From the IMG/VR virus record IMGVR_UViG_3300032207_000263, positions 1 to 47,051 of that record: a DNA stretch of 47,051 bases; one strand, given 5' to 3'. Each line of letters opens with the position of its first letter. Position 1 is the first letter of the stretch. The DNA comes from a virus. Positions 28,442 through 41,710 of this stretch are shown one piece after another. The notes beneath the pieces are model-generated. The model was given only the letters and a program-made list of their open reading frames with translations. It was not told the origin of the DNA and ran no database searches. Made by a program: the position numbers and the translations under genes.

Positions 28442-30412
28442 TTACCCAAAGTTGTTGGGGTTGTTCAGATACTCGCCCGTCAAATACCTTTCGTCATAAA
28501 ACCTTTGTTGCCCCGGCGTTGCGGTGCCTGCCGCTACCCTATCAAGGATGAACTGTAGGTTTTGATCAAATGTGGGCTTTGCTGACGAATCAAAAACCCT
28601 ATCGTCTGGAGACCCCGGAGTAAAATCCCGGTCATAAAGCCTTTCTCCATTTGGTCCGACTACGGGGTTCTCTTCGATGATGTCACCGCCGCCCATCGGG
28701 TAGGGGTAGGGCTGTATTCTTGGGCCACCCTTCCCGCCACCCATTGGGTACGGCATTGGTCTAGCCATCCCACCTTTGCCGCCACCAAATCTAGGTCGCT
28801 GGTAGCCGCCATAAGGGCCAAATCCTGTCGAGTAGCCGCCCATCAGTCCACGGTTGGGCATGTACTGCGAGGAGTATCCGTAGTTGAACGGTTGCATCGG
28901 CACGGTCATTCCCTGACCGAATCCACCCATGCCGCCGCCTTTACCACCACCGCCGAATCCGCCCATACCACCAAAGCCCATTGGGCTACTCATGCCATAT
29001 GGAACCATGCCGGAATAAAGCTGATTGCCAGTGATGTACTGGCCGGGCATTCTGTAGCCGCCACCAGCCTGATAGGTTCCGCCGCTCTGAGGCATAGCGC
29101 CACCAGTGCCGCCTTTTCCGCCCATTCCGCCCGTTCCGCCTTTTCCGGGGAATCCGGGCATCGTTCCTGCGCCAGTATCAGTGCCTGCTCCAGCCCCGGT
29201 TCCATCTCCAGCCCCGGCTCCAGCGTCTGCCAGCGCCTGATACTGGCTCAAGTCAGAGCCATATGGAACATTTGCAAACCCGCCGTCTATAGCGAATGGG
29301 TTGTTCGTTCTGTCGATGCCAAGTGAGTCCAGATAGGCTTGATAGTCTCTGCTGGTTCCCATGCCCTCTCCACGGCCATACGCCTGACGGACAAGGTTTG
29401 ATCGGAGTTTGTCAACGTCGCCGGTAAATGGAGCGCCTTCTGGGCGAAAGTTGTAAAAGCCTGTCTGACTTGGTGCGCGGCCAAACAGTTCTTGAGTTGC
29501 GGTAAAGAGTGGACCGCCAGCCTGTGAAGCCTCGTAGTAACCGCGATCCAGATCGCCAGCCCCAGAAATCAAGGCTTGTCTGAGATTGTCTGGGTTGATT
29601 CTGCCCTGAGCCAACTGCTCGTTAAAGTAATCAAGCCCAGCCTGTTTGGGCGCTCTGCCGAAAAGTTCTCGGTAATACTGATTAAGCTCGTCGGTATAAT
29701 TTGTCGTATTCGCCACTGCGCCCGTCCCCGCGTTAAAATCATCCACTACTGGGTCAGGTGTGTCCCTGACAGCGTCTGTGTAATAGGGGTCCGAGTCACC
29801 GCTAGCCCCTGCGAAAGATGGAGTTACGTTTACATTGCCTCTGCCAAGCTCATTGATGTCGTCGATTGAGTAGCCTTGGTTATACAGCGACTCAAGACGG
29901 TCAACATAGCCCGTGAACTTGTTAAACTCGCTTTCGCTTCTCCCTGTTTTATTTGCCTCATAAGGGCTAAACGCTCTGTTATCGCCCTCTGCTCGCATTT
30001 TGATGCGATCCCGTAACGCCTGAAGCGCGTGTATATGCGAATAGCCAAACTGGTTGCGTATATCTGCAAAAGACTCTGGGTCTTGGTTCGGGTCTTGGAA
30101 CTGCTTGTACATTCCCGAGTCGTCAAACTGGTAGGCCATCCCAGTCTGCGCTATTTGCTCGTCAGAAAGGCTGTAGTCATACCCCGGACGCGGGGCAAAG
30201 CTCCCCTTCTCTCTTGCCTCTTCGCTGTTGTACATTCTCCTAGCGGCAATGTGGGCTGGAAACTGCTGGTAGTACTCCAAACCGCCCGGATCGGCGCCAC
30301 GACCAAGGATGTCTTGGTAAAGACTCTCGATAATCTCCGCAGAAGCACGGCCTTGGGGCTGATTCTGGTAGATATCGATAATTCTTTCTCTGGCTTCGTC
30401 AGAAACAGCCAT
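28442..30412 (-). CDS. DUF4214-like repeat and Gly-rich virion protein (656 aa)
   Basis: First gene of the late operon. It holds at least two to three copies of a DUF4214-like module: IIESLYQDILGRGADPGGLE (about residue 27), YYRELFGRAPKQAGLDYFNE (about 245) and ATQELFGRAPSQTGFYNF (about 305). From about 395 it becomes Gly/Met/Pro-rich (GGMGGFGGGGKGGGMGGFGQ). The C-terminus returns to an ordered segment (QNLQFILDRVAAGTATPGQQ). DUF4214 occurs in surface proteins of marine bacteria and phages. ATG 30412 has GAGGAG in front. Probably structural; unproven. Confidence 0.6.
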   Translation of the reverse strand: MAVSDEARERIIDIYQNQPQGRASAEIIESLYQDILGRGADPGGLEYYQQFPAHIAARRMYNSEEAREKGSFAPRPGYDYSLSDEQIAQTGMAYQFDDSGMYKQFQDPNQDPESFADIRNQFGYSHIHALQALRDRIKMRAEGDNRAFSPYEANKTGRSESEFNKFTGYVDRLESLYNQGYSIDDINELGRGNVNVTPSFAGASGDSDPYYTDAVRDTPDPVVDDFNAGTGAVANTTNYTDELNQYYRELFGRAPKQAGLDYFNEQLAQGRINPDNLRQALISGAGDLDRGYYEASQAGGPLFTATQELFGRAPSQTGFYNFRPEGAPFTGDVDKLRSNLVRQAYGRGEGMGTSRDYQAYLDSLGIDRTNNPFAIDGGFANVPYGSDLSQYQALADAGAGAGDGTGAGAGTDTGAGTMPGFPGKGGTGGMGGKGGTGGAMPQSGGTYQAGGGYRMPGQYITGNQLYSGMVPYGMSSPMGFGGMGGFGGGGKGGGMGGFGQGMTVPMQPFNYGYSSQYMPNRGLMGGYSTGFGPYGGYQRPRFGGGKGGMARPMPYPMGGGKGGPRIQPYPYPMGGGDIIEENPVVGPNGERLYDRDFTPGSPDDRVFDSSAKPTFDQNLQFILDRVAAGTATPGQQRFYDERYLTGEYLNNPNNFG

Positions 30413-30450
30413 AGAATCTCCTCAATGAACGCTAGACAGGGCAAATCCCC

Positions 30451-30573
30451 CTAGTAATGTACTAGACCTAGGAAGGTTCTAGCTAGAACCACCCTATTAA
30501 ACAAAAACTTAGGAACTTACTAGGCTAGAACAGTCCTAGTTCTAGGAGATTTCTAGGCCTAGAACCTTTCTAG
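30451..30573. repeat. CTAG-N7-CTAG palindrome array 1 (seven elements)
   Basis: Seven 15-bp elements of form CTAG-N7-CTAG start at 30451, 30468, 30483, 30509, 30525, 30542 and 30559; the third and fourth have one changed outer base (CTAT, TTAG). Spacing is 15-17 bp apart from one 26-bp gap. Examples are CTAGGAAGGTTCTAG and its near complement CTAGAACCTTTCTAG. Twelve exact CTAG occur in 123 bp. It ends 38 bases before the ATG at 30412. Looks like a multi-site operator, or a recognition site for replication or packaging. Confidence 0.9.
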
Positions 30574-30855
30574 GTAGAAATACCCCCCGGATTGTACAGA
30601 ATATAGCCCCTTGACAGTAACATGTCTACAGTTAGACGGGGTTTTTGGTCGATTTTTTGGTAATTTTTGGCATTTTGGTCAAATTTTGCAGAAATATTGG
30701 GGGGTATGGGACTCCTAGGGCGATTTCCCATGAAAAATCCCCCGATGAGACAGTGTGACAGTGAGACAAAGTTGAAAATTAGCTCATTTTTTGAGCGGAT
30801 CACTATGTATATAGAAGCGACATGGCCTCGGCTCTAGGGGGGGGTGGGGGTCGCT
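30574..30855. other. Noncoding region between CTAG array and terS
   Basis: Apart from the promoter, this AT-rich stretch has a GAAGCGAC/GTCGCTTC inverted repeat (30814-30821 and 30850-30857) around a G8-T-G5 run, a small hairpin GCTCA/TGAGC near 30781-30795, and direct GAGACA copies near 30745-30770. A 77-codon open frame at 30570-30803 lacks coding character. I see no gene here. Confidence 0.6.
30600..30628 (-). promoter_or_regulatory. Sigma70-like promoter of the late operon
   Basis: The minus strand reads TAGACA (30628-30623), a 17-base spacer, then TATATT (30605-30600). Transcription would start near 30593 and run through the CTAG array, making it part of the 5' leader of the late operon. 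The same TAGACA -35 with 17-base spacing appears at 36251 on the plus strand. Confidence 0.55.
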
Positions 30856-31350
30856 TCAGTGGATGTCCATAGTATCTGGCCGATCTCGAGAAAAGTCGTA
30901 ATCGTCTGCGTCTGACGTGTCATCAGCAGTGGCAGAGTCGAGCATGGCATCGAGCTCAGCGAGCAGGTCAGCCGATGATCGGGCATCGACCTCAGCGTGG
31001 AGCTCGACAAAGGCGCCCGATGCGCGACCCAGCAGTTCCAGAGCGCGGAGCCTGCCGCTGTCCTGAGGGCTGGCAGTGAGGGCGAGGTCACGCAGGTGCT
31101 TCCTGACCATCTCACGGTCTGAGAGTGCAGAGGCAACCATACCGGCCTCCCTCGCCTTGATTAGCTGGTCATACCTTGCCCTTACCTTGCGGTTGGCCGA
31201 CAGCCTGCTGGCCTTCTCGTGGACGGTCTTCGCCTTGGTCTCTGGGCTGACTGAGAACGCTTCGCGGTATGCCTGAGATTGCGATAGGCCGCTGGCCCAC
31301 GCCCGACAGTAGTGGAGTTGGGCTGACGTGAGGGGTTTGTCATCTGACAT
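30856..31350 (-). CDS. terS: Terminase small subunit
   Basis: 164 residues. LTSAQLHYCRAWASGLSQSQ, then AYREAFSVSPETKAKTVHEK and ASRLSANRKVRARYDQLIKA form the helix-turn-helix DNA-binding part of the terminase_2 type. A helical oligomerisation region and an acidic tail (SATADDTSDADDYDFSRDRP) follow. Start ATG 31350 with AGGAG six bases before is preferred to the codon at 31380. Unusually it is separated from terL by the control region, a virion gene and a small basic gene. Confidence 0.8.
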   Translation of the reverse strand: MSDDKPLTSAQLHYCRAWASGLSQSQAYREAFSVSPETKAKTVHEKASRLSANRKVRARYDQLIKAREAGMVASALSDREMVRKHLRDLALTASPQDSGRLRALELLGRASGAFVELHAEVDARSSADLLAELDAMLDSATADDTSDADDYDFSRDRPDTMDIH

Positions 31351-31693
31351 GGTCTGCTCCTGTAAACTTGTTGCCTGCAAGGGGTCTGCCGATCCTAACC
31401 TAGAATTTACTTTAACTACACCCCCTAAGTGGTTCCGGTTCTAACTTCCGATTAAATATCAAAAACGCGCTCTCAGCCACGTTAACATGTTCTGAGTACT
31501 GGGGTATGGGTTTTTCTAACGTTGCTCACAGGGCCATACAGAGCCTCTCAGGGCATGTTCTACTGCAATTAAATGCTCTGAAACGCACTAAAAAGTCGTC
31601 GAAAAATCACGCTTACAGCCCGAACTTAAAGTAGATTCTAGGTGTGCTCGCAGTGCGTCATTGCGTAGGTATATAAAAGGCACCATGACTTCT
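31351..31693. other. Noncoding part of divergent control region
   Basis: Lies between terS (minus) and the early genes (plus). It is AT-rich with isolated CTAG sites (near 31402 and 31637) but no N7 pairs, and a TTAACATGTTCT palindrome near 31484. An 81-codon open frame at 31588-31833 overlaps the promoter and start of the first early gene and does not look coding. No clear promoter for terS is visible. Confidence 0.5.
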
Positions 31694-33106: not shown

Positions 33107-34252
33107 ATGGCAGATACAGTAATTTCAGCAACGATGGCGGACGTGGATAAGATGATCCCCACTATGCTCGCATCCCCCCAAGGCTTCCAGCCTCTGGGCC
33201 TGATCGGCGCCCCCGCCATGGGTAAAACCATGTACTTCCAGACTCGTTTCCGCGAGCACATGGCGAACCACTATGGCGTGCAGGTGGACGATATCGGCAT
33301 CGTGATCGAGAAGATCGGGCAGGCCGAAGATGCCGCCGCGGTTAACGGGCTCACCCTGCCCAGCAAGCTGGCTGACGGCTCAGTCGCCACCATCAAGTCG
33401 AAGCCCTCGATACTGGTACGCATCGAGGCGACTGGCAAGGAGTACGGCGTCCTGTTGCTCGACGAGGCGGCTCAGGCTGGCACCAATGTTGTGGGCTCGC
33501 TGGGCGACACCTTCAACCGTGCAGAGCATAAGGTGGGCGATTGGGATCTTCCTGAGGGCTGGGTAGTGGTCTTCACCGGCAACCGTGTCGAAGATAAGTC
33601 GGGCTCCAAGCGGTTCCCGTTCCACCTGATTGCAGGCCGCGGCCTTCTCGTTAACTTGATACAGGATACCGCAGGCTGGGTCCGCTGGGCTGGACCTGCC
33701 GGTATCAATCCGCTCTTTGTCGGATTCATCGAGTCCGGTATCAACAATGTCGGTTTCGCTGACGCGGTGCCTGAAAAATACGGCCCCTACCTGACGCCCC
33801 GCTCAGGTGTTGCCGCCGCCGCTCACCTCGATGCCTTCATGGCCTCAGACGAGTTCGATGGCACTGAGATCCCCGCCCACATCATCACCCTGATGGCGAT
33901 GAATATCGGGCAGACTGCGGCCTCTTCTCTGAATGAGTACATCAAGACCGCCGACAGCGTGCCGATGGGTCACGAGATCCTTGCCGACCCCACGGGCGCC
34001 ATGGTGCCAGACGATACTGGCTTCCAGCAGTTGGCCGCGAACCGCGCCATGAATGCCATCGTGAGTGAGGCTGACGCTGATGCCGCCCTCACCTACATCG
34101 TGCGGTTGCGTCCTGACCTGCAGATATCGCTGGGCACCAAGCTGATCCGCCGTTCTTCACGAGAGGGCTGGCCTATGATCTCGCCGATTGCCAACGCCTT
34201 CATGAATAAGTTCTCCGAATTCCTTCCCCTTGCCGCAGAGGAGCGCCAATAA
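33107..34252 (+). CDS. MoxR-type AAA+ ATPase
   Basis: 381 residues. Walker A GAPAMGKT (34-41), Walker B VLLLDE (115-120), a sensor-1 Asn in VVVFTGNR (153-160) and following SKRFPFHLIAGRGLLVNL carrying candidate Arg-finger residues. These fit the MoxR/RavA/CoxD/NorQ/CobS group, which work as hexamers with a VWA partner to remodel or insert metal cofactors in target proteins. The partner is the next gene, overlapped as TAATG. The ribosome-binding leader CCTGTAGGAGGGATATCACT also occurs before other early genes. Confidence 0.8.
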   Translation: MADTVISATMADVDKMIPTMLASPQGFQPLGLIGAPAMGKTMYFQTRFREHMANHYGVQVDDIGIVIEKIGQAEDAAAVNGLTLPSKLADGSVATIKSKPSILVRIEATGKEYGVLLLDEAAQAGTNVVGSLGDTFNRAEHKVGDWDLPEGWVVVFTGNRVEDKSGSKRFPFHLIAGRGLLVNLIQDTAGWVRWAGPAGINPLFVGFIESGINNVGFADAVPEKYGPYLTPRSGVAAAAHLDAFMASDEFDGTEIPAHIITLMAMNIGQTAASSLNEYIKTADSVPMGHEILADPTGAMVPDDTGFQQLAANRAMNAIVSEADADAALTYIVRLRPDLQISLGTKLIRRSSREGWPMISPIANAFMNKFSEFLPLAAEERQ

Positions 34253-35670
34253 TGAAAGCCAAAAAGCTATACGCCGCAACCGACGATCTGACCAACAGCC
34301 GTAAGCATGTCGCGGCCATGATCATCCTGAACGCGAAGGCGCCGGTTCACTACACCACACTGGTAGCGACTGAGACCATCTGGACCTCAGCCATCCCCAC
34401 CGCCGCCACTGACGGCGTGTATGTTTACGTCAACCCTGAGTTCTACCGCGGGTTGGCGACTGACGGCCAGCGTGCGTTCCTGCTGGGTCACGAGGTGTCG
34501 CACATCATCCTGCGTCACCCCCAGCGCAGTCTGGCCTACCAGAAGCGCGGGTTCTTCCGCCATGGCATGAAGTTCGTGCACAGCATCTACAACAGTGCCG
34601 CCGACTATGTGATCAATGATGACCTGATCGCCATGGGTCTGGAGCCCATCCCGCAGGGACTGTACTCCGACACCTACAAGCGTGATGACGTTGTCGATAC
34701 CGTGTACGCGGACATCTACAAGGATCAGCCAGAAGAGCCTGAGCACGGCGAGCCTGAGGGTGAGGAGGGAGGTTTCCCGTCTCCTGAGTCTGGCAACTCT
34801 CAGCCCAATGGGGACGGTGAGGAAACCGAAGGTGAGCCCAATGGTGCAGGTACTCAGAGCGGCGAGTCTACTGACAACATGTCAGGAGAAGGTGACCTGC
34901 CCGCACCCGCAGGCCACGACTACCATCTCACCCCCGAGTATGAGGGCGACGCCGACGAGCAGGCTGATGCCGCCGCTCAGGACGAGCACGATATCAGTGA
35001 GGCGATTGACCGCGGTCTGGATCAAATGGACGCTGAGGGTAAGGACACCTCCAAGGTCTCCGGCAACGTCAGGGACGGCGGCAACCGCTACCGCTCAGGC
35101 AAGCAGTCCAATGTCGCTTGGAACGCGGAGCTTGCTGACCGTGTCACCCGTGTCGGCAAAGGCGAGCGCACCAGCTTCTCCCGCATCAAGGTTCGGCAGT
35201 ATGCCACTATCGGCGTGATCAGCCCTGAGACGCTGGGCGAGTTTACCCGCCTGACCGTGATCAGTGATATCTCATCGTCTGTCAGGGACGAGCCCTTCAA
35301 GGCTTACCTGAACGAGTTGGCCGCAATCCAAGACGCAGTCAATCCCGTCGAGGGCGTGACCATCCTGTGGACTAACCACCATGTTGCGCGGGTTGATGAA
35401 GCCTACTCAAGCGATGAGCTTCTCAACCTCGACATGCCTTGGAAGGGCGGCGGCACTGAGATGTCTGCCGGTTTGGACTGGCTGGATCAGAACGGCGTCG
35501 AGTCTGACCTGATCATGGTGTTCACCGATGGCGAGTTGTGGGGCGATGACTGGACCCGTCTGGCCGCTGAGGATGACCTGCTGGTCGTGCTGGACCGCGA
35601 GCCAGACCTCTACACCAAGCGTGAGCTTGACGGCCACAACATCGACTACATCGTCGCGGAGGCCGCATGA
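34252..35670 (+). CDS. VWA-domain protein with N-terminal metallopeptidase-like part
   Basis: 472 residues. The N-terminal domain has a zincin motif GHEVSHIILRHP (HEVSH at 80-84) with a possible third ligand in SAADYVINDD (about 116-124), as in the DUF2201 metallopeptidase-like group. A long acidic Glu/Gly/Pro/Ser linker (about 160-250) follows. The C-terminal VWA domain has a complete MIDAS: DISSS (339-343), Thr402 in GGGTEMSAG, and Asp426 in VFTDGE. This architecture pairs with MoxR ATPases. Whether it cleaves protein is unknown. Confidence 0.8.
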   Translation: MKAKKLYAATDDLTNSRKHVAAMIILNAKAPVHYTTLVATETIWTSAIPTAATDGVYVYVNPEFYRGLATDGQRAFLLGHEVSHIILRHPQRSLAYQKRGFFRHGMKFVHSIYNSAADYVINDDLIAMGLEPIPQGLYSDTYKRDDVVDTVYADIYKDQPEEPEHGEPEGEEGGFPSPESGNSQPNGDGEETEGEPNGAGTQSGESTDNMSGEGDLPAPAGHDYHLTPEYEGDADEQADAAAQDEHDISEAIDRGLDQMDAEGKDTSKVSGNVRDGGNRYRSGKQSNVAWNAELADRVTRVGKGERTSFSRIKVRQYATIGVISPETLGEFTRLTVISDISSSVRDEPFKAYLNELAAIQDAVNPVEGVTILWTNHHVARVDEAYSSDELLNLDMPWKGGGTEMSAGLDWLDQNGVESDLIMVFTDGELWGDDWTRLAAEDDLLVVLDREPDLYTKRELDGHNIDYIVAEAA

Positions 35671-38446: not shown

Positions 38447-38752
38447 ATGCAAAGGCGAAGATGGACAAACGAAGAAGATGACGTGATCGAGGACGGCATC
38501 GCAGAAGGGTTGACGTACAGACAGATTGCGGAAAAGCTACCTGACCGGACAGAAACCGCCGTGTCGAATCGAACCCATGTTATGCGGACGAAGTATTCGC
38601 GCTACAACATAAGGCGAAACCAGACAGAGCCGCCTGAAATCAAGGCGGTGATCAATGACGGCAGGATAGGTATCATGTTCTGGGCCGCGTGCGTGGCGGC
38701 AATCGCCTCGTCTCTTACCCTGATGATTTGCATTGGGGCAATGTACTCTTGA
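38447..38752 (+). CDS. Myb/SANT-like DNA-binding protein with C-terminal membrane helix
   Basis: 101 residues from ATG 38447 (GAGGAG before). RRWTNEEDDVIEDGIAEGLT with YRQIAEKLPDRTETAVSNR is a Myb/SANT-type three-helix DNA-binding domain with the conserved W and hydrophobic core. The C-terminus has a clear membrane helix (FWAACVAAIASSLTLMICIG). A DNA-binding head with a membrane tail could tether phage DNA to the envelope or be a membrane-controlled regulator; inference. Confidence 0.65.
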   Translation: MQRRRWTNEEDDVIEDGIAEGLTYRQIAEKLPDRTETAVSNRTHVMRTKYSRYNIRRNQTEPPEIKAVINDGRIGIMFWAACVAAIASSLTLMICIGAMYS

Positions 38753-39011: not shown

Positions 39012-39491
39012 TCAACCGCCGCTCTTCAAGTGCCTCACCGGATTCTTACCGCCAGCCATGCGTCTCTCAGCAATCCAGCCCAGCCCCTTTTTCAGGGTGA
39101 CAAGTCTTTCTTTTGACGCCGACACGTCCCAGCCATGGATTACCACCTCCTCGACAAGATACTTGGCATAGTCGCCATATCGCCTGCCAACAAGGTTCAA
39201 AGTCCTCCCATACCGCATTAGAGCGTCAGACGCCATCGAGTCTGGGTTTGCATCTCCTGATCCCGCCTCGTACCTGAGGGGCTTGGAAAAGATGCCTGCC
39301 TTCACCGCCTGACTCAGAACATACTCCCCAGCCTGATGCTCACCCAGCGTCAGCAAGCCGTCCATGAGATACCTGTCGATCAGGTTCTGATCCATGACCT
39401 TGGCGCGAGGCATTGTGCCGCCCTCCACCATGACGGCGTGGCGTTTGTGGATTTCTTTCGTGCCTAAGTCTGTGTGTAACTTGTCAGTCAT
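39012..39491 (-). CDS. Conserved phage protein (159 aa), helical
   Basis: HKRHAVMVEGGTMPRAKVMD, then LIDRYLMDGLLTLGEHQAGE and ASDALMRYGRTLNLVGRRYG. The C-terminal part ends RMAGGKNPVRHLKSGG, a motif I associate with a phage/rhodobacterial DUF6456-like group. It is likely DNA-related because it follows the primase-helicase gene. AAGGATTCTT precedes ATG 39491. Converges on the plus-strand block. Confidence 0.5.
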   Translation of the reverse strand: MTDKLHTDLGTKEIHKRHAVMVEGGTMPRAKVMDQNLIDRYLMDGLLTLGEHQAGEYVLSQAVKAGIFSKPLRYEAGSGDANPDSMASDALMRYGRTLNLVGRRYGDYAKYLVEEVVIHGWDVSASKERLVTLKKGLGWIAERRMAGGKNPVRHLKSGG

Positions 39492-39560: not shown

Positions 39561-41309
39561 CTAGAACTCATCGAAGTCATCCCATGCTCTTCCCCGCAAT
39601 TTAGACAGGCCAGTCGCTGGTGGATCTGGTTCAGGTGTCCTCTCGGTGTATGTACCGTTAGACATGTTATAGCTTAACTGCGCGACACCCTGCGAGCCTA
39701 CCCATTTGAATCTAGATTTCCAGCAATGAATCTCGACGCATTCATCTGTCCTGTGAACCGTCACACCCAGATCAGCCTTGGCAAACCAAGCCGCTGACCC
39801 TGAGATATTCATGCCTTTTGGCACAGCGTAGGTGCCATCCTCACGGGGGTACATCTTCTGGGGGTGGGCGACAAACCAGACGTGGATGCCGTGGGCCTTG
39901 GCAAAACTGGTGATGCGGGTCAACATCTGGGAAATGTTGCTGTGCTCCTCCTGACTGCTCGACTCAATGTAGTTGTACGGGTCGATGATCAGACCCCGCA
40001 CACCCATACGCATAACCGCTTGCTTGGCCCTGTCGATGATCGAGTCAATCGTGCTGAGACCGCCGTCCTTGCTTTCAAGGAACACAAAGTGGTCGTTGAT
40101 GAACTCGACAGCCTCGCCTAGCTCATCCTCGCTCATCCGCTGGCTCAGTCCGGTGTAAAACGGCTTGCCTGACACCTTCTCAGCGAGCTTGGCAATGTGC
40201 ATGTGGGGCGGGTTTTCAAACGAACAAACCGCAAACTTCCACGACTCACGCTGAGCGAGATTGATCATAATCTGGTCGATGAACTCAGACTTGCCGCTTG
40301 ATGGCATGCCGGTGACCACCGAAAGCTGGCCCTCAGCAACGGTAAATAGCTCGTCAATAGAATTAAATCCAGTTGAGGCGCCACGCCCATGTCCGTTCTG
40401 GTAGATGTCTTTAACCGCGTCCAAATACTCGCTGGCACCATACACGCCAGACAAAGGTATCGGCTCGGGATTGTCGAAGATGCGTCGTGTTTCCTCTGCC
40501 CCTAACTTGTCAACAGCATCGTTCGCGTCCTTGGCGCCCTCGGGAAACTTAACCCGCCAGCACTTTGCTCTGCCCACTCGGCGAGCAATCTCCTCTGCCA
40601 GTGCCTCGCCAGCCTCATCGCTGTCTGTCGCCAGAACGATCTTTTTGCACCGATCCAATCGCTCGCGCTCATTCCACACAAACGCAAACTTTTTGTCCTC
40701 TTCAGGGTCGATACGGTTGTGCGATACCTTTATCGGTGCCCCATTTGGGCAGGAAACGGCCTTAATTCCGATGCTGGCTAGGGCAATGACATCACACTCC
40801 CCCTCAACTATCGTTAATTCTTCGGCCTCTTCCTCTATGTTTTCTATGCCGTAAAAGGATCTTGGTGCGCCATCACAGGTGAATCCCTTGCCTTCCACAG
40901 ATCGCCACTTGATTGCTGTTGGCGACTCCCGTGTTCCGTACACAAAGCCAACCGCCTGCTTTTCCTCACCGCCAAACCACTTGGTGCCAGTGGTCATTAG
41001 AGGTAAGTCATTGATGTCGTTGATTTTGACTCCTCGAGAGGAGAAGAAGTTCTTAACAAGTTCTACGTTATCGTTCAGTTGGGTGGGTATCTTCACTACT
41101 TTGTCTTGTTTCATATGAGCCTCGTAAAATTTTTCACGCCGGTAAGAACCAGACAAGCCGCAATGGTGGCAGTGGTAAAGGGTATGGTCTGGTTTTACGG
41201 TGATTGAAAGTGTTTTTATGCTTTTCTTTTTGCGTGCATCTGAGCAGTCTGGGCAACGCTCTCTGGCGTCTTGATTGTGACTCAGGATGAAGTCTTTCAA
41301 GCTGTTCAT
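39561..41309 (-). CDS. DNA primase-helicase (T7 gp4-like)
   Basis: 582 residues in the order zinc ribbon, TOPRIM, helicase. The zinc ribbon has Cys19-x2-Cys22 and Cys47-x2-Cys50. TOPRIM has VEGECD (168-173) and DSDEAG (229-234). The DnaB-type helicase has Walker A GMPSSGKS (334-341), Walker B IIDPYN (441-446) and HVWFVAHPQKMYP with the H motif. It would unwind the fork and make primers. AGGAGG lies 11 bases before ATG 41309. A palindromic CTAG array lies directly upstream. Confidence 0.88.
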   Translation of the reverse strand: MNSLKDFILSHNQDARERCPDCSDARKKKSIKTLSITVKPDHTLYHCHHCGLSGSYRREKFYEAHMKQDKVVKIPTQLNDNVELVKNFFSSRGVKINDINDLPLMTTGTKWFGGEEKQAVGFVYGTRESPTAIKWRSVEGKGFTCDGAPRSFYGIENIEEEAEELTIVEGECDVIALASIGIKAVSCPNGAPIKVSHNRIDPEEDKKFAFVWNERERLDRCKKIVLATDSDEAGEALAEEIARRVGRAKCWRVKFPEGAKDANDAVDKLGAEETRRIFDNPEPIPLSGVYGASEYLDAVKDIYQNGHGRGASTGFNSIDELFTVAEGQLSVVTGMPSSGKSEFIDQIMINLAQRESWKFAVCSFENPPHMHIAKLAEKVSGKPFYTGLSQRMSEDELGEAVEFINDHFVFLESKDGGLSTIDSIIDRAKQAVMRMGVRGLIIDPYNYIESSSQEEHSNISQMLTRITSFAKAHGIHVWFVAHPQKMYPREDGTYAVPKGMNISGSAAWFAKADLGVTVHRTDECVEIHCWKSRFKWVGSQGVAQLSYNMSNGTYTERTPEPDPPATGLSKLRGRAWDDFDEF

Positions 41310-41347
41310 CTGTTTGACTACCTCCTACTTGTATGCTATTGGTAGCC

Positions 41348-41415
41348 CTAGGACTGTACTAGACTAGAATATTCCTATTTAAAATAGGTATATATCTAGA
41401 CTAGAACCTTCCTAG
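41348..41415. repeat. CTAG-N7-CTAG array 2 with dyad layout
   Basis: Elements CTAGGACTGTACTAG (41348), CTAGAATATTCCTAT (41364), ATAGGTATATATCTAG (41384, one base longer) and CTAGAACCTTCCTAG (41401) are mirrored around 41381-41382. The centre is the near-palindrome CCTATTTAAAATAGG, and the outer ends are CCCTAGG and CCTAGGG. The left end is 38 bases before ATG 41309, the same distance as array 1 to its gene. Element types are shared with array 1. Candidate operator or replication origin. Confidence 0.9.
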
Positions 41416-41436: not shown

Positions 41437-41460
41437 AGCCCCCAATAGGGGGCTTTTTTT
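41437..41460 (+). terminator. Rho-independent terminator (plus strand)
   Basis: AGCCCCC-AATA-GGGGGCT followed by seven T on the plus strand. On the minus strand the hairpin directly follows the stop codon of the gene at 41459-41710 but has no T-run. There is no plus-strand gene just upstream, so it may end a short transcript through array 2, or block antisense transcription from entering rusA. Confidence 0.75.
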
Positions 41461-41710
41461 ATGCACACTGGAACAACTCTTCCATCACCATCTGAGCAAC
41501 AACCCTCTGTTGCGTCCGGCTCAGGCAAAGCATTTCGTCCAGTGCGTCTTGCAAACCGACAGGGTAACCCGCCAACCGGCAGTGATAGACAAAAGCGTTT
41601 GATTTCAAATATTTAATGGCGGCATCACGGTCAACTTGCTGGTTACAAACCAAGTCCTTGATCGCCTGAAGGATGACCTTGCTATAAACAATTTTATAGG
41701 TGTCTGACAC
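41459..41710 (-). CDS. Small protein (83 aa) after RusA gene
   Basis: MSDTYKIVYSKVILQAIKDL, then RDAAIKYLKSNAFVYHCRLA and a C-terminal helix (CLSRTQQRVVAQMVMEELFQ). Helical with three Cys. Overlaps the resolvase gene by 17 bases. Probably a replication or recombination accessory by position; not recognised. Confidence 0.6.
   Translation of the reverse strand: MSDTYKIVYSKVILQAIKDLVCNQQVDRDAAIKYLKSNAFVYHCRLAGYPVGLQDALDEMLCLSRTQQRVVAQMVMEELFQCA

Follow-up and report, generated by a model that had tools for sequence, protein, structure and literature searches.

Results

Gene surroundings of the CTAG clusters

The window analysed here, i.e. the whole stretch of DNA under study, corresponds to a virus record 47,051 bases long. 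Because its portal protein is 39–44% identical to the portals of the Pelagibacter phages HTVC023P/HTVC027P, the Roseobacter phages CRP-901/902, and phage DSL-LC04, the phage is an uncultivated relative of that tailed-phage group, and its own group has the abundant HTVC023P-type phages of SAR11 as distant relatives. No sign of lysogeny was seen among the genes examined, and neither the leader of the virion operon nor the 159-aa protein described below has a match in any annotated phage of the collection. The relevant features are as follows:

28442–30412, minus strand: first gene after the late array, encoding 656 aa with a short DUF4214 match
30451–30573, minus strand: late (virion-operon) array, a putative operator array of seven 15-bp units with an AT-rich gap at 30498–30508
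30856–31380, minus strand: terminase small subunit (TerS; PHROG 51), upstream of the late promoter and a candidate binder
39012–39491, minus strand: 159-aa all-helical protein, candidate regulator
39561–41309, minus strand: primase-helicase (Toprim, DnaB_C)
41348–41415, minus strand: second putative operator array, preceding the primase-helicase gene; its units are interrupted by an AT-rich gap
41437–41454, plus strand: intrinsic-terminator-like hairpin with a T run, between the second array and an 83-aa gene

Downstream of the late array, the minus-strand operon contains in order the 656-aa gene, an 84-aa gene, and the genes for the terminase large subunit (TerL) and the portal; at the other locus, the gene for the 159-aa protein comes directly after the primase-helicase gene. 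For both arrays in the window, the distance from the end of the array to the next start codon is 38 bases. The early region (33107–35670, plus strand) carries a gene pair for an ATPase and a metallopeptidase/VWA-like (DUF2201) protein, the second of which is named HNH endonuclease by PHROG.

CTAG palindromes are confined to two arrays

The first-pass annotation had described seven tandem CTAG-N7-CTAG palindromes at 30451–30573. We find seven units, only five of which are exact (starting at 30451, 30468, 30525, 30542, and 30559), while two carry one mismatch (30483, CTAGAACCACCCTAT; 30509, TTAGGAACTTACTAG). The start-to-start steps of 17, 15, 26, 16, 17, and 17 bp agree with the spacing of 15–17 bp with one gap reported there, and the half-sites of the 15-bp unit are, as also reported, 11 bp apart. 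We also recovered the reported 12 exact copies of CTAG in these 123 bp; when the window was simulated 200 times with a first-order Markov model, the densest stretch of this length contained 3–6 copies. CTAG as such is only mildly scarce, with 107 copies in the whole window versus ~145 expected.

The earlier description covered this stretch only and did not include the second array at 41348–41415, in which the units at 41348 and 41401 are exact and the unit at 41364 has one mismatch. Altogether, the 47-kb window contains seven exact CTAG-N7-CTAG pairs, all inside the two arrays, versus a mean of 0.37 and a maximum of 2 in shuffled sequences. Such pairs are, therefore, not equally frequent elsewhere in the genome; nor are the arrays unconserved, as both are kept in relatives (see below).

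Hairpins lie close to both arrays. In an alignment of the virion leader (30436–30454 of the window, minus strand) with the leaders of relatives, most have a short GGG..CCC hairpin directly after the last late unit; it overlaps the final CTAG, is often followed by T-rich sequence, and is a possible pause site or weak terminator. The hairpin at 41437–41454 faces away from the primase-helicase gene, and a similar hairpin is present in most relatives.

Position of the arrays relative to predicted promoters

Among 12 aligned virion leaders, the most conserved block reads TTGTCA or CTGTCA, N15, TACAAT. A promoter before the late array had been proposed from the single sequence, and the alignment supports it in the form of this block rather than as the TAGACA-17-TATATT pair picked by a consensus scan, which is less conserved. 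Two promoter elements were assigned:

30591–30617, minus strand: virion-operon promoter block from the alignment of 12 leaders, i.e. CTGTCA (30617–30612), N15, TACAAT (30596–30591)
41333–41338, minus strand: -10-like element TAGCAT of the primase operon, read by eye from the alignment

Based on the promoter block, transcription of the virion operon would start near 30584, which would place the late array at about +11 to +133. At the primase operon, relatives have TATCAT, TATCAC, or TATCAG in place of TAGCAT, and in an alignment of 13 primase loci this TAGCAT/TATCAY element lies 9–14 bp beyond the proximal unit, so that the proximal unit would cover the -35 region. Judged by this geometry, i.e. 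the -35 region at the primase operon and about +11 to +133 at the virion operon, repression would most likely be the mode of action; an array over the -35 region could activate instead.

Both arrays are conserved in relatives and absent elsewhere

To identify relatives, we scanned IMG/VR with the primase-helicase and terminase proteins and obtained 155 loci. A weight matrix was generated from 58 distinct exact units, giving the consensus CTAG-D-A-[AC]-W-[GT]-T-H-CTAG. With this matrix we scanned the window and nine further class-A genomes or partial genomes (ten in all: G000, G001, G004–G009, G011, and G014), and all sites of at least 10 bits were in one of the two arrays, while the Markov expectation for sites in the window was 0.37; the matrix derives from exact CTAG pairs in these very lineages and is thus uninformative on looser sites, although finding no sites elsewhere involves no circularity. 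Among primase loci of at least 70% identity, 26 of 27 had two or more sites in the 180 bp before the gene (19 distinct upstream sequences). For the virion leader we counted sites in the 14 terL loci that had enough upstream sequence and the promoter block GTCAAG-RGG; ten of these had at least two sites, one had a single site, and three had none. In all 11 virion loci with sites, the first unit starts 41–43 bp from the GTCAAG of the promoter block. When all genomes were scanned for dyads in general, the CTAG dyad came out as just one of several weak signals, since such a scan counts pairs and is blind to clustering. The same scan revealed genome-specific dyads, namely TAAC-N2-GTTA, with ten copies in G001 (L196–L198), and TCACT-N4-AGTGA, with five copies in G006 (L190–L191).

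We also considered that the late array could be a packaging (pac or cos) site bound by TerS, as the first-pass annotation had allowed. The late array lies between terS and terL, a usual place for pac or cos, and TerS is among the few non-structural proteins common to all motif-bearing lineages. A packaging site, however, occupies one place per genome, whereas here an array is also found 10–11 kb away upstream of the primase-helicase gene in nearly all relatives; moreover, the late array holds a fixed distance to the promoter, and class-A TerS diverges to 34–49% identity while the motif is constant. We rejected the pac/cos reading on account of the second array, and consider it very unlikely. 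The other part of that annotation, a binding site for a phage regulator in the virion leader, is well supported by the fixed promoter distance, the second array, the conservation, the lack of dispersed copies, and the replacement of the motif at both places described below.

Alternatively, the two arrays could be the parts of a bipartite replication origin, much like ori and crr in satellite phage P4, with the units serving as iterons for a phage replication initiator and the AT-rich gaps as melting sites, one array beside the primase-helicase gene and the other about 10 kb off. In line with such an arrangement, repeats adjoin a replication gene, both arrays include an AT-rich gap, and the arrays are 9.5–11.3 kb apart in every genome compared. 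This equal distance, however, may simply follow conserved gene order, and an origin would not need the constant spacing of the late array to its promoter. In addition, the units are palindromic rather than direct iterons, GC skew tracks the gene strand and singles out neither array, and an initiator gene was not found. On balance, we regard an origin as unlikely.

Because the late array lies in a transcribed leader and its palindromes can pair as 6-bp hairpins, each unit might also act as a short hairpin in the leader transcript. Among 73 distinct units, however, mirror positions 5/11 pair in 38 units versus 34 expected if independent and positions 7/9 in 34 versus 30 expected, and pairing that does not exceed expectation favours recognition at the DNA level over an RNA hairpin. 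Moreover, the CTAG halves do not vary in sequence, folding of the leader RNA is only a little better than that of shuffled sequences (z -1.5), and no Rfam match was found, making an RNA element very unlikely.

To address whether the motif occurs outside of this phage group, we searched for the doublet CTAGDANNNTHCTAG-N0-3-CTAGDANNNTHCTAG. Among 2.9 million viral contigs it was present in 34 stretches, all of them kin: the 28 newly fetched stretches all encode TerL, primase, or neighbouring proteins of the phage group, and the remaining six had been recognised as kin from their proteins before. In ~85,000 prokaryote genomes the doublet was found once, in a phage-like 61-kb contig (L244, PBMQ01000020.1) of a metagenome-assembled genome titled Euryarchaeota archaeon SP209. 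The genes at this doublet are those of our phage (TerL 97%, portal 96%), and this is probably a viral contig binned by mistake. The doublet is thus not a common host regulon element, and we rejected a widespread host regulon because the doublet is absent from the prokaryote chromosomes in these ~85,000 genomes; a host protein that binds single sites is compatible with this result.

Several sister lineages carry another motif at both places

In the primase tree, class A forms a clade with G012 as its sister. G012 has kept the virion promoter block described above, and palindromes other than CTAG-N7-CTAG occupy both array places, e.g. CGTATATATACG and CGTAAATTTACG in the virion leader and CGTATATAAACG at the primase gene. 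In G013/G023, the virion promoter is followed by AAGGATTACCCTT-like repeats, and the primase gene has no intergenic space in front of it; in these two, only the virion leader has an array. In a deeper clade, CTAG-containing palindromes are again clustered at both places, i.e. clusters of the TACTAGTA type in G018/G019, of the ATAACTAGTTAT type in G015, and of true CTAG-N7-CTAG units with 16-bp steps in G029 and L228; no array was evident at either place in G020. The motifs of G012, G013/G023, and G015 were read by eye from few copies, so that their exact consensus is only tentative. Overall, motif clusters at the two places are widespread; which motif they contain depends on the lineage, and most genomes have the same one at both. 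A motif that is exchanged at two loci far apart points to one trans-acting factor.

A separate dyad, AAGTT-N6-AACTT (AAGTTAN4TAACTT in G029), occurs 6–8 times per genome in G015, G019, G020, and G029 (loci L179–L187 and L247–L250). Several of the copies in G019 and G029 are scattered over intergenic regions, also close to the primase promoter, and this dyad looks like a second regulon with single sites.

Candidate binding proteins

We compared the non-structural protein families of motif-bearing G029 with those of the window. In profile comparisons of 25 families of the window and 24 of G029, three were common to both, i.e. TerS, the 159-aa protein, and an SSB-like protein; a homologue search added the 83-aa protein as a fourth. 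Besides TerS and the 159-aa protein listed above, two proteins were considered in particular:

41459–41710, minus strand: 83-aa five-helix protein beside the second array, candidate binder (AlphaFold2 pLDDT 91.8)
38447–38752, plus strand: 101-aa Myb/SANT-domain protein with a hydrophobic C-terminal stretch, weak candidate

The first-pass annotation had suggested the Myb/SANT-like protein as binder. This protein is encoded in 12/12 class-A contigs with a primase array and in 0/13 others with a primase locus; this co-occurrence follows the tree and can be due to shared ancestry. Neither tblastn nor profile comparison found a homologue in motif-bearing G029, and phages that share the motif differ in the recognition helix. 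Based on the lack of a G029 homologue and a varying recognition helix opposite a constant motif, we rejected the Myb/SANT protein as binder. It has weak similarity to GcrA, its C-terminus is possibly membrane-spanning, and G001 has two tandem copies. An 89-aa CxxC protein and a small membrane protein were likewise rejected because they were not found in G029.

For the 83-aa protein, the PDB fold search gave no match. The 159-aa protein is conserved in all lineages examined, its gene coming after that for the primase-helicase throughout the group, and its model, based on 24 homologues, has a pLDDT of 72. With this model as query, a Foldseek search against viral models matched a phage DUF6456 protein (probability 1.00, E 1.3e-3, TM 0.53, rmsd 8.0) as well as uncharacterised phage proteins, and sigma-factor folds at non-significant E-values; the PDB fold search gave nothing significant. 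Thus, neither of the two proteins matched a DNA-binding protein in the PDB. The PF20057 (DUF6456) profile had no match in ten genomes at E 0.1, while the Caulobacter control was found.

DUF6456 is found in homologues of GafA, which are activators of the virion genes of gene-transfer agents (PMC9638019), and in Caulobacter, the antiterminator GafZ has a sigma-like helix-turn-helix and depends on a palindrome located between -10 and -35 (PMC11150451). We therefore considered that the arrays could be loading sites for an activator or antiterminator, with the 159-aa protein binding to them in a GafZ-like manner and modifying RNA polymerase at both operons. The fold-level resemblance, the location of the 159-aa gene in the primase operon, its conservation in all lineages, and the location of the late array downstream of its promoter agree with this idea. 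However, the confidence of the model is moderate, the sequence profile match is absent in all ten genomes, the GafZ site lies inside the promoter rather than in a long leader array, and the family is also present in G020, which has no evident array. Loading sites of this kind are, accordingly, quite unlikely. From the modelled fold, the 159-aa protein is likely a late regulator, which may or may not be the array binder.

Discussion

We suggest that the two arrays are probably operator arrays, through which a phage DNA-binding protein controls the replication and virion operons together. Specifically, a phage-encoded protein, probably a symmetric dimer, would read CTAG-D-A-[AC]-W-[GT]-T-H-CTAG; with half-sites 11 bp apart, the dimer would contact two adjacent major grooves from the same side of the helix, and with a unit step of 15–17 bp, proteins would fill the units side by side, presumably cooperatively. 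One such protein would exert joint control over the replication operon, comprising the primase-helicase and 159-aa genes, and the virion operon. A role as repressor, which is less certain than the single trans-acting dimer, would mean that at the virion promoter it blocks the start or early elongation of transcription until removed or overridden. Counting against the operator model are the three virion leaders without sites, the lack of an evident array in G020, the array-free primase locus of G013/G023, and the failure to find a classical repressor among the proteins scanned with Pfam or PHROGs.

Tandem palindromic phage operators are of a known kind. The operators of lambdoid repressors (lambda OR/OL and 434) are palindromes of 14–17 bp with half-sites about one turn apart, several of which lie side by side at lytic promoters. 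The arrays described here resemble them as short palindromes with half-sites 11 bp apart that lie side by side at the virion and primase operons, and as motifs that differ among related phages. They differ in having 3–7 units rather than three, in that no repressor gene was recognised, and in the location of the late array downstream of the promoter; no classical repressor domain was found among those proteins of the window, itself an incomplete genome, that were scanned with Pfam or PHROGs. The operator of the Trp repressor also has CTAG as the core of the half-site and binds tandem dimers; CTAG spacing, however, is 8 bp in trpO versus 11 bp here, and a TrpR-like protein was not found. Stoperators are asymmetric and occur as single sites across the genome. 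The sites here are similarly phage-specific and differ in specificity among related phages, but are symmetric and confined to two clusters. In cluster A mycobacteriophages, stoperators are phage-specific, can act on elongating polymerase, and differ in specificity among relatives (PMC9283540, PMC6550527). Finally, control by GafZ/GafA would share with our system a DUF6456-like, sigma-like regulator of virion genes and a palindromic promoter element (PMC11150451, PMC9638019); the resemblance of the 159-aa protein is at the fold level only, and the GafZ element is a single palindrome inside the promoter.

A more speculative version of the operator model, which we regard as possible but doubtful, is that a protein of a new DNA-binding family fills the arrays at both operons, that arrays and specificity switch together between sister phages, and that perhaps a GafZ-like antiterminator carries polymerase through the bound leader array.

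In the records and open-access literature that we searched, we found no description of the phage group, the motif, the two-operon arrangement, or the motif replacement. Gene control in this phage group has so far been essentially uncharted; in the transcriptome of HTVC027P, only early genes of unknown function were found (PMC12753301). The arrays direct attention to two promoters, a precise motif, and a small set of candidate proteins, making the regulator directly testable, and sister lineages in which the motif has been exchanged at both places provide a natural series for studying how regulator and site change together.
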